64,000 bases of DNA from Arthrobacter sp. DNA4 (GTDB taxonomy: Bacteria; Actinomycetota; Actinomycetes; Actinomycetales; Micrococcaceae). Below the pieces are notes generated by a model. The model was given only the letters and a program-made list of their open reading frames with translations, did no database searches and was not told the origin of the DNA. The stretch lies in NCBI RefSeq assembly GCF_024362385.1, contig NZ_CP101466.1:2418001-2482000 (forward strand), in the 5' to 3' direction. Both the position numbers and the translations under genes were made by a program. Of this stretch, positions 20,558 through 54,039 are shown in pieces; position 1 is the first letter of the stretch, and each line of letters begins with the position of its first letter.

Positions 20558-20614
20558 CTAGATAGCGTCTGTGGCCTCGCCGCGGCAGCTAAGGAGAAGG
20601 AGCTCTGCACGCAC
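20558..20614 (-). CDS. leuA leader peptide (18 aa, four consecutive Leu codons)
   Basis: A GTG-started mini-ORF reading M-R-A-E-L-L-L-L-S-C-R-G-E-A-T-D-A-I and ending in TAG, 81 bp upstream of leuA on the same strand. Four adjacent leucine codons (CTC CTT CTC CTT) are a classic sensor for charged leucyl-tRNA. There is no ribosome site. A TACCCT -10 box ends 6 nt before the GTG, so the leader is probably translated from a leaderless mRNA. I see no clear U-tract terminator between the leader stop and leuA. The downstream mechanism (alternative helices or translational control) is therefore open. Confidence 0.8.
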   Translation of the reverse strand: MRAELLLLSCRGEATDAI

Positions 20615-20620
20615 ACTTTG

Positions 20621-20626
20621 AGGGTA
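20621..20626 (-). promoter_or_regulatory. -10 box for the leuA leader transcript
   Basis: TACCCT on the minus strand, 6 nt upstream of the leader GTG. The -35 region is weak (a CTTTCA-like sequence at about 16 nt). Confidence 0.5.
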
Positions 20627-49710: not shown

Positions 49711-52233
49711 CTATGCCGGAACGATGTTGACCAGCTTAGGCGCACGGACGATCACCGTGCGGATGCCCCGGCCGTCCATGGCGCGTTGGACGTTCTCCGA
49801 CGCCAGTGCCAGTTCGCGCAGCTGGTCTTCGGAGACGTCCGGGGACACCTCCAGCCGGTCGCGGACCTTGCCCTGGACCTGGACGACGGCGGTGACCGTG
49901 TCCTGGACCAGCAGGGCGGGGTCGTGGGACGGCCAGCCGGCGTTGGCAACCGATGCAGGGTGGCCCAGCAGGTTCCACATGTCCTCGGCGGTGTACGGCG
50001 CGAACAGGCTGAGGATCACGGCAACCGCCTCTGCGGCTTCGCGGACTGCGGGATCCGCTGCGCCCGCACCGGAGTCGATCGCCTTGCGGGTGGCGTTGAC
50101 CAGCTCCATGAGTTTGGCCACCACCACGTTGAACTTGTTGGCGTCCAGCAGTTCTGCGGCATCGGCGATGGTGCGGTGCGTTACCGAACGCAGCCCGCGG
50201 TCTCCGGTTGCGGCGTCCACACCGGCATCACTGGTGACGTCCTGCGCCAGGCGCCAGGCCCTGGCCAGGAACTTGGCGGAACCGGACGGCGACACGTCGG
50301 CCCAGTCCACGTCGTCCTCGGGCGGGGACGCGAACACCATGGTCAGGCGGACAGCGTCCACGCCGTACTTGTCCAGCTGCTCGCCGAGGTCAACGCCGTT
50401 GCCCAGGGATTTGCTCATGGCCTTGCCGCCGTTGAGCACCTGGCCCTGGTTCAGCAGCGCGCTGAATGGTTCGTCGGCATCGATCATGCCGAGGTCGTGG
50501 ATGACCTTTGTGAAGAAGCGGGCGTAGAGCAGGTGGAGGATGGCGTGCTCCACGCCGCCCACGTACTGGCCCACCGGCATCCAGTCATTGATCTTCTGCG
50601 GATCGAAGGGCCCCTCGGTGTAATGCGGCGACACGAAGCGCAGGAAGTACCAGGATGAGTCCACGAACGTGTCCATGGTGTCGGTGTCCCGTTTCGCGGG
50701 CCCGTGGCAGGTGGGGCATTCCACGTTGACCCAGGACTCCGCCGCAGCCAGCGGCGAGGTGCCCTTCGGTGCCAGGTCCTCACCGCGGAGGTCCGCGGGC
50801 AGGGTAACCGGCAGCTGCTCATCGGGAACGGGGACTTCACCGCAGGACGGGCAGTGGATGATGGGGATGGGGGTGCCCCAGAAGCGCTGGCGGCTCAGCA
50901 GCCAGTCCCGGAGCCGGAAGTTCACGAACTTCTCGCCGGTACCCTGCTGTTCCAGCATGGCAATGGCGGCAGGGATGGCCTCAGCCTTGGGCAGGCCGTC
51001 CAGCTCGCCGGAGTTGATCAGGGTGCCCTCGCCCGCTGTCGCGGTGCCGGACACAGCCGGATCCTCCTCGCCGGTGTCCAGGACCGCGCGGACCGGCAGG
51101 TCGAAGGTCCTGGCGAAGTCGAGGTCGCGCTGGTCGTGGGCCGGGACGGCCATGATGGCGCCTGTGCCGTAGTCCGCCAGCACGTAGTCGGCGGCCCATA
51201 CGGGCAGCTTCTCCCCGTTCAGCGGGTTGATGGCATAGCGGCCGGTGAAAACGCCGGTCTTCTCGCGTTCCGTGGACTGGCGTTCGATCTCGGAGAGTGC
51301 CTTGACCCGTTCGCGGTATTCGTCCAGGGCGGCAGCGTGCTCGTCCGTGACAAGTTCGACGGCGAGTGGCGCGTCGGCGGCGACCACAAAGAAGGTTGCG
51401 CCGTAGAGAGTGTCCGGCCGGGTGGTGAACACCGTGACGTCCTTGGCGTCCTTGCCGCCGTCGGCCTCGATCACGAAGTTGACGTGCGCACCCTCGGACC
51501 GGCCGATCCAGTTCTTCTGCATGGCCAGGACACGTTCGGGCCAGTGGCCGCGGAGTTCGTCCATGTCGTCCAGCAGCCGGTCCGCGTAGTCGGTGATCTT
51601 GAAGTACCACTGGTTCAGGGACTTCTTGGTGACGGTGGTGCCGCAGCGCTCGCAGGCGCCATTGACGACCTGCTCGTTGGCCAGGACGGTCTGGTCCTTG
51701 GGGCACCAGTTGACCGGGGAGTTCTTCCGGTAAGCAAGGCCGCGCTCATAGAAGCGCTTGAACAGCCACTGCGTCCAGCGGTAGTACTCGGGATCAGAGG
51801 TGTGCAGGCGGCGCGACCAGTCGGCGGAGATGGCGTACCGCTTGAAGGAGGCCGCCTGGGTGTCGATGTTGGCGTACGTCCACTCGCTGGGGTGGGCGTT
51901 GCGCTTGATGGCGGCGTTCTCCGCGGGCAGGCCAAAGGAGTCCCAGCCGATGGGATGCAGGACGTCGTAGCCCTTCTGCCGCAGGTAGCGGGCCACCACG
52001 TCGCCCATGGCGAACGCCTCGGCGTGGCCCATGTGCAGGTCGCCGGACGGGTACGGGAACATGTCAAGCACGTAGCGGCGCTCCCGCGACCCGTCGTCCA
52101 CCGGGGTGAAGACCTTGAGGTCATCCCACACCTGGGGCCATTTGGCCTCCATGGCGGCGAAACTGTAGGTGCCCTCTTCAGGCTCCGCCGATACTGTTGT
52201 TGTTCCGGTCTCTGTCTCCGGCTGAACGCCCAC
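49711..52233 (-). CDS. leuS: leucyl-tRNA synthetase
   Basis: LeuS charges tRNA-Leu. About 840 residues with a class I catalytic core (HIGH-type [10 protein letters not shown] near 65; KMSKS-type Lys-Ala-Met-Ser-Lys-Ser near 600), a CP1 editing domain (about 225-420), a zinc-type Cys-Pro-x-Cys pair, and an anticodon-binding C-terminus. GTG 52233 is preferred because AAGAGGG lies just upstream; the frame is open further but there is no start with a ribosome site. A leucine leader peptide and a terminator hairpin lie in the 175 bp upstream, so expression probably responds to charged leucyl-tRNA. Confidence 0.96.
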
Positions 52234-52318
52234 TGCTGCCCTCTTCTGTTCTGTTACGGCATCTGTGCTGCCATAACGGCCTGATCCTCCTGCTGCCGGC
52301 CCGGCGCCATGCCCCGGA

Positions 52319-52348
52319 CACACAAAAGCCCCTCTCCATGGAGGGGCT
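52319..52348 (-). terminator. attenuator-type terminator in the leuS leader
   Basis: Read on the minus strand: AGCCCCTC, 6-nt loop, GAGGGGCT, then TTTGTGTG (stem 52327-52334 with 52341-52348). It lies between the leader peptide and leuS, so it would stop transcription before leuS. A second potential stem (52349-52353 with 52378-52382, with CCGA/TCGG inside) sits directly behind the leader stop codon. Confidence 0.65.
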
Positions 52349-52381
52349 GCCGCTCAGCTGTCCGATTATCGGAGCCGGCGG

Positions 52382-52408
52382 CTAACTAAGCAGAAGGATC
52401 GCACGCAT
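52382..52408 (-). CDS. leuS leader peptide (8 aa, Leu codons in a row)
   Basis: An 8-codon ORF, M-R-A-I-L-L-L-S then TAG, 148 bp upstream of leuS. It carries three consecutive Leu codons after Ile. It mirrors the leuA leader in this window (M-R-A-E-L-L-L-L-S). TAAAGT lies 6 nt before the ATG, so translation would be leaderless. A stem and a terminator-like hairpin follow. Together they look like a ribosome-mediated attenuator sensing leucyl-tRNA. Confidence 0.75.
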   Translation of the reverse strand: MRAILLLS

Positions 52409-52414
52409 GGATCT

Positions 52415-52420
52415 ACTTTA
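52415..52420 (-). promoter_or_regulatory. -10 box for the leuS leader transcript
   Basis: TAAAGT on the minus strand, 6 nt upstream of the leader ATG. No clear -35 box at 16-18 nt. Confidence 0.5.
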
Positions 52421-52521
52421 GCGCACCGGCACGTCCCCCGCCTCAGCCAGGCCGAACGGCCCGTTGCACTGGCCGGGGCAAGCGCGCATGATCGTCCCAC
52501 AACGTTGGGAGGCGGCACACC

Positions 52522-54039
52522 ATGTCAGAAGCAACCACCGCCGGCCCTGCTGAAGGACAGCCCCTCTCCCTCTGGCTGGCAACCGCCGGCACCACTGACT
52601 TTCCGGGCCTGCGCGGCACCGTGGAAGTGGACGTGGCAGTCATCGGTGGAGGCATCGCCGGGCTGACCGCAGCGCTGGCCCTGAAACGTTCGGGCCGCTC
52701 GGTGGCAGTCCTGGAAGCCGGCCGGATCGGCACCGGCGTCACTGGCCACACCACGGGCAAGGTGACGTCCCTGCACCGCCTCGCCTACACGGATCTGCAG
52801 AGCAGTCATGGCGTAGCAGCGGCCAGGAGCTACGGATTGGCGAACCAGGCGGCCGTGGAATACATCGGTGCGGTGGTGGACGCTGAGAACATTTCCTGCG
52901 GTTTCCGCCGGGTCGCCAACTACACCTTTGCTGCAGGCCATGATGCGCTGCCGCAGGTGCGGGCAGAAGCCGGGCTTGCGGCGGACCTCGGCCTTCCGTC
53001 AACGTTCACCGCCGACGTTCCCCTGCCGTTTCCCGTGGCCGGTGCCGTACGGTTTGACGGCCAGGCCCAGATCCATGCCGTCCAGTACCTCCAGGGGCTC
53101 GCCGGAAGGGTGGACGGGGACGGCAGCTTCGTCTTCGAACGCACCCGCGCGCTGGAGCTGCGCGAGGGCAGTCCCGTCACGGTGGCCGCCGCCGACGGAA
53201 CCGTGCTCGCCCGGGATGCGATTGTGGCCACGAACGTTCCCTTCGCCGACCACGGCCGGTTCGAAGCACTCTGCCAGCCGCACCGCTCCTACATCGTCGC
53301 CGCGCCGATCGGCACCCCTCCCCTGGACGCCACCTTCATCAGCGCGGATGAGCCCATGCGTTCGCTGCTGACGGTCCGCCTCAACGCGGTGACGTACCTG
53401 CTGACGGGCGGCGAGGGCCATCCCGCGGGCGCGCACGTAGACCCGGCACCGCGCCATGCCAGCCTGGCCCGTTATGCGCGCCTCCAGTTCGGGGCCGGCG
53501 GCGCGGCTTACCGTTGGTCCACCCAGGACGCGCTGCCTCTCGACGGTCTGCCCTATGCGGGGCCGTTGAACCCGGACAGCCGGCACGCCTTCGTCATCAC
53601 GGGCCTGCGCAAATGGGGCCTGACGAACGGTACGGCCGCGGCGCTGATGCTGGCGGATCTGCTCAACGGCACGCCCAATGAGTGGGCGGCCCTGTTTGAC
53701 AGCAACCGTGCGACGTCGCGGACCACCAGGGTGGCAGCGCCACCAGCAGCGCACGGGGACACCGTTCCCGGGAAAGGGACCACACAGCGGACAGCGGACC
53801 TTCTTCCCGGCGACGGCACTGTCATTGAAACGGACGGGACCAGCACGGCGTGCTACCGGGATCCTGCGGGACAGATCCACGCGGTGTCCGCGATCTGCAC
53901 CCATCTTGGCTGCACTGTCGGGTTCAACCGGGAAGACCGCACGTGGGACTGCCCCTGCCATGGCTCCCGGTTCGATGTTGACGGCAAAGTCATCCAGGGG
54001 CCGGCAACCGAGGATCTCCCTGTGCGCCCGGCGCCGTGA
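52522..54039 (+). CDS. FAD-dependent oxidoreductase with C-terminal Rieske domain
   Basis: A 505-residue protein fusing a DAO/glycine-oxidase-type FAD domain (about 35-395; Gly-Gly-Gly-Ile-Ala-Gly-Leu near 44) to a Rieske 2Fe-2S domain (about 430-505; Cys-Thr-His-Leu-Gly-Cys and Cys-Pro-Cys-His-Gly-Ser). All Rieske ligands are present. There is no signal peptide. Similar fusions are widespread in soil bacteria, and the substrate is unknown. ATG 52522 has TGGGAGG upstream. It is divergent from leuS. Confidence 0.9.
   Translation: MSEATTAGPAEGQPLSLWLATAGTTDFPGLRGTVEVDVAVIGGGIAGLTAALALKRSGRSVAVLEAGRIGTGVTGHTTGKVTSLHRLAYTDLQSSHGVAAARSYGLANQAAVEYIGAVVDAENISCGFRRVANYTFAAGHDALPQVRAEAGLAADLGLPSTFTADVPLPFPVAGAVRFDGQAQIHAVQYLQGLAGRVDGDGSFVFERTRALELREGSPVTVAAADGTVLARDAIVATNVPFADHGRFEALCQPHRSYIVAAPIGTPPLDATFISADEPMRSLLTVRLNAVTYLLTGGEGHPAGAHVDPAPRHASLARYARLQFGAGGAAYRWSTQDALPLDGLPYAGPLNPDSRHAFVITGLRKWGLTNGTAAALMLADLLNGTPNEWAALFDSNRATSRTTRVAAPPAAHGDTVPGKGTTQRTADLLPGDGTVIETDGTSTACYRDPAGQIHAVSAICTHLGCTVGFNREDRTWDCPCHGSRFDVDGKVIQGPATEDLPVRPAP

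Follow-up and report, generated by a model that had tools for sequence, protein, structure and literature searches.

A predicted leucine-responsive attenuator with a leaderless leader ORF upstream of leuS in Arthrobacter and other actinomycetes

What is a very short, leucine-rich ORF, followed by two hairpins, doing ahead of the leucyl-tRNA synthetase gene leuS of Arthrobacter sp. DNA4? The locus lies in the window, that is, the whole stretch of 64,000 nucleotides analyzed here. In our reading, to which we assign a probability of roughly 0.86, the leader is a ribosome-mediated transcription attenuator that responds to leucine and has a leaderless leader ORF. Such a leader would probably let this soil bacterium raise leucyl-tRNA synthetase when leucine runs short. 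Comparison of genomes supports the predicted ORF, the identity and position of its codons, and both hairpins; the stalling of the ribosome, the switch, and the direction of the switch are what we infer from them.

The mini-ORF, promoter box, stem, and hairpin described in a first-pass annotation of this DNA were all found where it had placed them, on the minus strand (Table 1). Six bases (AGATCC) separate the TAAAGT box from ATG 52408, and codons 5-7 of the ORF are the Leu codons CTT CTG CTT (52396-52388). The leuS transcript is predicted to be leaderless, its first nucleotide being the A of ATG 52408 or an adjacent base, with box spacing (TANNNT 6 nt 5' of the start codon) as the basis of the prediction. 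The hairpin had been credited with a T-rich tail; a terminator-type hairpin is present, with a tail (UUUUGUGUGUCCGGG) whose T-run comprises only four bases, and 79 nt lie between this tail and leuS. The leuS product matches TIGR00396 at 972 bits (cut-off 548; open frame 49711-52323 searched). Read by eye, a divergent FAD-oxidoreductase-like gene (52522-54039) with a C-terminal Rieske-like stretch begins some 100 nt away from the leuS promoter.

Table 1. Features of the leuS leader region in the window, and the leader loci assigned to cimA
Feature	Position or locus	Strand	Remarks
-10 box TAAAGT	52415..52420	minus	TGCGC directly 5' (52425-52421)
Leader ORF MRAILLLS, predicted leaderless	52382..52408	minus	eight sense codons plus stop codon TAG (52384-52382)
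Stem1	52349..52382	minus	opens at the last base of the stop codon, 5 nt past the last Leu codon
Terminator-type hairpin AGCCCCTC-CATGGA-GAGGGGCT	52327..52348	minus	folding and covariation
Remainder of the short T-run plus strongly conserved stretch GTGTGTCCGGG	52313..52326	minus	
leuS, leucyl-tRNA synthetase, type A	49711..52233	minus	start GTG 52233, read by eye
cimA leader loci	L275-L278, L281, L283, L287, L288, L296		

A 541-base query spanning the leader and the start of leuS was run against 101 genus genomes and matched 98, the genome of origin included; the three without a match are 68, 82, and 90% complete. Seventy of the 98 matching loci were fetched, the window's own counted, and the leader is present in every one of them, as 68 distinct sequences. 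All 68 carry TANNNT exactly 6 nt ahead of the start codon and CTT as the last Leu codon, followed by A, and in all of them 5 nt lead from this codon to the first base of stem1. Three Leu codons are the rule (67/68, with two in the remaining leader), and the start codon is GTG in a single case. Among the 18 distinct versions of the 27-nt ORF in the genus, Leu codons 5-7 vary only synonymously, the exception being one Thr at codon 5, whereas changes do occur in the stop and at the Arg, Ala, Ile, and Ser positions; TAG is lost to CAG or AAG in four versions, and the longer products seen have 17 residues. The synonymous variation at the Leu codons is no more than an indirect sign that the ORF is translated. 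The first-pass annotation had held that its reading would gain from conservation of the Leu codons and from compensatory changes in the hairpins among relatives, and the mini-ORF, Leu codons, and hairpins are indeed kept in close relatives (70/70 loci). A combined search pattern for box and ORF matched only 3 of 246 genomes and is too strict as a class-wide search, though all three sites are leuS leaders. Strong conservation also marks GTGTGTCCGGG (52323-52313), just 3' of the terminator, within the genus and in part outside it; termination alone fails to account for this.

Beyond the genus, 80 upstream regions from the order and class were fetched with LeuRS as bait and screened by script for a Leu-rich ORF with TANNNT 4 to 9 nt before its start. 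The leader lies ahead of leuS in 36 of these loci, 34 recognized by script and two by eye (L084 and the degenerate L089); in the other 44 it was detected by neither, and the covariance model introduced below adds one of them (L221, cut by a contig end). The peptides vary (e.g., MPRALLLT, MQQVLLLNEPRR, MRTSLLLTGPR, and MRGLLLLIGPR). Box and start codon are 6 nt apart in 25 of the 36 leaders and 7 nt in 11, and a 5-nt distance between Leu run and stem1 is seen in 32. CTT closes the Leu run in 29 of the leaders, CTC in seven.

A pattern scan of GTDB genomes, with 80 of 119 stretches listed, fixed codon and spacing in the pattern itself; it was therefore used for taxonomy, structure, and LeuRS type, never for codon or spacing counts, from which its 74 distinct leaders are excluded. 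The loci listed come mostly from Streptomyces, and also from Kitasatospora, Nonomuraea, Streptosporangium, Thermoactinospora, Nocardioides, and Arthrobacter; Pseudarthrobacter and Paenarthrobacter species, too, are among the genomes listed with such a leader. A LeuRS gene follows the leader in 77 of the 80 loci listed, and the other three have fewer than 400 bases of DNA past it. The leuS leader is, in short, a common device in actinomycetes.

The choice of the last codon deserves attention. Although CTT closes the Leu run in 68/68 distinct genus leaders and 29/36 order and class leaders, it is uncommon in leuS genes, accounting for 33 of the 835 Leu codons counted in 12 leuS genes of type A and for one of 2678 in 35 of type B (the two types are described below); in six window genes it makes up 25 of 241. 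In line with what is generally known of attenuators, a slowly decoded CTT at the stall site would explain the fixed last codon. Alternatively, CTTA may have a role at the nucleotide level. With codon and spacing fixed, the predicted stall site is open to direct test.

Folding by itself is not decisive for the leader structure. The 70-nt stretch comprising stem1 and terminator folds at -37.5 kcal/mol versus a shuffled mean of -26.7 (z -3.2), and the z-scores for the whole 109-nt leader (-1.5) and the terminator piece alone (-0.7) are unremarkable and small, respectively. For covariation, 60 of 186 located leaders were shortlisted for diversity and 49 aligned across actinomycetes; the 11 dropped included near-duplicates, leaders with long loops, and the deviating L089, L237, L271, and L272, and the covariation figures consequently lean toward well-behaved leaders. 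In this alignment, 93.7% of cells pair over 17 base pairs in two helices, and both hairpins covary, with change on both sides in 13 of the 17 pairs. Double-change cells number 75, versus a mean of 17.4 in shuffled alignments and 2 to 16 with partners slid; since the reference structure was derived from one alignment row, it is favored over the slid versions, but the compensating changes are still many. The compensatory changes anticipated in the first-pass annotation are thus found in both hairpins.

The covariance model now at hand has matches (E up to 0.01) in 87 of 148 class genomes. In the order it matches 54 of 119 genomes and in the phylum, with E up to 1e-4, 18 of 246. Of 115 class model rows, 64 lie within 700 nt upstream of a LeuRS gene. 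G244, in which leader and leuS are split between two contigs overlapping by 127 identical bases, is added to these, and the resulting set includes the 62 best rows. A model leader stands directly ahead of leuS in 65 of the 148 class genomes (G244 included), 29 of them with type A and 36 with type B LeuRS, and a single alignment and model cover both the window leader and the Streptomyces-type leuS leader. Four model matches outside the class comprise one leuS leader (MAAALLLSPPR) and three ilvB leaders. The leader might instead be a T-box or another ligand-binding riboswitch, T-boxes being the usual Gram-positive device for synthetase genes, as the earlier annotation remarked, but no Rfam family reaches its gathering score in the window, and there is no T-box or other relevant match at E up to 10 in 52200-52450; we consider this explanation highly improbable.

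Two LeuRS types stand behind this one leader. Type A, the window type (about 840 aa), occurs in 79 of 148 class genomes and type B, the Streptomyces type (about 960 aa), in 68, with no overlap at E up to 1e-40; among 119 order genomes the counts are 49 and 70, with one genome matched by both queries. Compared with the window LeuRS, type B sequences show about 36-43% identity, mostly 38-40%, versus at least 64% over the aligned stretch for type A sequences from the GTDB loci listed; identity falls to 53% in N-terminal pieces of class type A members. The types are mixed even within families, one of which (f27) has one genus with type A and three with type B, behind similar leaders. A DegV gene follows leuS in 42 of the 80 GTDB loci listed (11 type A, 31 type B), a count to be read knowing that many of the remaining loci end too early to show it; in the type A Nonomuraea locus L160, none was seen within about 2.8 kb past leuS. 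Because the same leader precedes two distant LeuRS types, the sensed signal is unlikely to be the LeuRS protein itself; the charging of tRNA is the better candidate.

A further 25 model matches, hand-picked rather than random, were followed to their downstream genes (15 of the 50 class rows that are not leuS leaders, G272, five order rows, and four phylum rows). Two precede leuS, 14 ilvB, and nine cimA, the gene for citramalate synthase. The ilvB leaders carry runs of Val, Leu, and Ile codons, and each of the nine cimA leaders has at least two Ile codons, a stem, and a terminator. Of the 23 ilvB and cimA leaders, 17 have a CTT, GTT, or ATT codon and two a CTC codon at a distance of 5 nt from the stem; in the other four the stem anchor is one base off, and two of these (L278 and L281) end in ATC by eye. 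Some of these leader ORFs lack a clean TANNNT box. As Leu, branched-chain amino acid (BCAA), or Ile codons match the gene downstream, codon identity follows the pathway while the layout is kept. Outside the window, the same genome has an ilvB leader (MTFVTGIVVVLTKRVAH; G000:C1:2822708-2822821, L274) with a terminator and the same codon-to-stem spacing, and it has no citramalate synthase above the family cut-off. We found no cimA leaders with Ile codons in the literature searched, which largely missed subscription journals.

These relatives bear on two further explanations. LeuRS might bind its own leader as a tRNA mimic and repress it, the ORF being incidental; the regulated gene is, after all, the synthetase itself, and autoregulation of this kind is known for E. 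coli thrS. This is very unlikely given that the same leader precedes two LeuRS types that are mostly 38-40% identical, that its relatives sit before ilvB and cimA with other codons, and that the Leu codons are retained through synonymous change. Alternatively, leucine might not be sensed at all, and the leuS promoter region would then simply contain a small RNA or an ordinary terminator; at about 85 nt, a leader RNA ended by termination would resemble a small RNA. The fixed codon-to-stem spacing, the preference for CTT, and a codon identity that suits the gene in three gene families make this very unlikely as well.

How, then, would the attenuator work? With transcription starting as predicted, the ribosome would load straight onto the 5' AUG. 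When Leu-tRNA is ample, it would reach the stop codon, the terminator (52348-52327) would form, and most transcripts would end before leuS. Under a shortage of charged Leu-tRNA, it would stall, and CTT, the last Leu codon, would be the most effective place. By standard footprint geometry, the front edge of a ribosome whose A site holds CTT would extend over roughly five bases at the start of the stem1 5' arm. This would free the 3' arm, which might then pair with the terminator loop across the terminator 5' arm, delaying the terminator and letting RNA polymerase read into leuS.

We put this freed-arm switch forward tentatively, with more doubt than confidence. Of the attenuation mechanism proposed in the first-pass annotation, the leader peptide and the attenuator are borne out by conservation and covariation; the switch itself is not, in that neither folding with different stretches masked nor comparison with shuffled loops revealed an antiterminator conserved across lineages. 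With the stem1 5' arm masked, pairing of the 3' arm with the terminator loop is the only recurrent alternative, at a mean probability of 0.29-0.34 before the terminator 3' arm is made; with the complete terminator present, it drops below 0.2. This pairing does not clearly surpass shuffled loops in strength (median p 0.24 to 0.55, depending on the group), and it comprises only three pairs in the window sequence, being better in Streptomyces (GCGCGG with CUGUGC). The finished terminator dominates on average (0.70-0.80 even with the stem1 5' arm masked), and the switch must therefore be kinetic or involve something unseen.

The same sensing could also drive another switch, in which stem1 is itself the antiterminator and forms on an early stall in the Leu run, as in the three-hairpin model for ilvBNC of Corynebacterium glutamicum. 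ORF, hairpin, and adjoining terminator are arranged as in ilvBNC, a gap of 1-3 nt separates the strong stem1 from the terminator, and the ilvBNC model is supported by mutations according to the available part of that study (PMC11857589). In ilvBNC, however, antiterminator and terminator share a GCC trinucleotide, whereas stem1 and terminator do not overlap in the leuS leader. Moreover, when stem1 is formed and the terminator 3' arm is unmade, the terminator 5'-arm columns pair upstream at a mean probability of at most 0.01, and stem1 and terminator can thus coexist. We consider this switch less likely than not, if still worth keeping in mind.

Returning to sensing by a stalled ribosome, one may speculate that actinomycetes possess one modular leaderless attenuator of rigid geometry, which is retuned by codon swaps alone, has been kept through in-place replacement of LeuRS by a distant type, switches without a conventional conserved antiterminator, and has its stall site at a wobble codon that is deliberately rare. 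The geometry would consist of a control run ending in NTT, one spacer codon, NNG whose G opens stem1, and the terminator; the retuning would be to Leu (leuS), Ile (cimA), or mixed BCAA (ilvB). As a whole, this generalization is possible rather than probable.

How does the leuS leader compare with known systems? In the classical enterobacterial trp and leu attenuators, control codons in a Shine-Dalgarno-led leader ORF are followed by hairpins, a clear antiterminator, and an intrinsic terminator. The window leader shares with them the control codons in a leader ORF, followed by hairpins and a terminator, and differs in the Shine-Dalgarno-led ORF and the clear antiterminator found there. T-boxes often control synthetase genes, as the window leader is predicted to do, but they bind tRNA directly and work without a leader ORF.

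Closer to the window leader is the Corynebacterium ilvBNC leader, described as a three-hairpin attenuator (PMC11857589) and as the ilvB-II motif (PMC10272879). As far as the accessible text of these papers goes, it too has an ORF about one nucleotide from the RNA start, control codons, a first hairpin, and an adjoining terminator, and differs in its BCAA codons and in the GCC shared by its antiterminator and terminator. Leaders of ilvB are already known (PMC1262725, PMC10272879, PMC11857589, in the parts available). A result cited in the available part of PMC1262725 is a caution for the whole leader group, namely, that substitution of candidate control codons before ilvBNC of S. coelicolor had no effect. 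The LEU element upstream of leuA, as described in the accessible part of PMC1262725, resembles the leuS leader in having a leader ORF with a Leu run; unlike it, the element has no obvious terminator and a proposed pseudoknot that pairs with the leuA Shine-Dalgarno sequence. By eye, leuA in the window (ATG about 20476) has its own leaderless-looking leader (20558-20626, minus strand), with TACCCT, six bases, GTG, and MRAELLLLSCRGEATDAI in that order and a Leu run ending in CTT AGC; this putative leader (20614-20558) fits the published LEU element.

The closest parallel lies ahead of leuS itself. We found no leuS leaders described for Arthrobacter in the literature searched, which largely missed subscription journals. 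The first-pass annotation had called a leuS attenuator of this type much less familiar than a T-box, which does not hold, as the available part of PMC1262725 already has such attenuators, as predictions from 2005, ahead of leuS in Streptomyces coelicolor and S. avermitilis. In S. lividans TK24, leuL2 was described in 2021 as a leuS leader peptide (MRAVRLLLSEPR), leaderless from TSS data and followed by a hairpin and a U-stretch (PMC8079986, available part). The Streptomyces and window leaders are alike in having a Leu leader peptide behind a TANNNT box, stem1, an adjoining terminator, and leuS; in the Streptomyces loci read here the Leu run also ends in CTT at the same distance from stem1, though our search pattern fixed both. 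They differ in the LeuRS type (B there, A here) and in the stop codon of the ORF, a TGA inside stem1 in Streptomyces and a TAG where stem1 begins in the window. The antiterminator claimed for Streptomyces in the available part of PMC1262725 was not found as a conserved feature in the leuS leaders compared here. A ribosome-mediated leucine attenuator before leuS is therefore well supported, but not new in kind. What the comparison provides is an extension of the Streptomyces prediction to Arthrobacter, its kin, and many other actinomycete families, with a broader leader family (leuS, ilvB, and cimA) standing behind the leader in the window.
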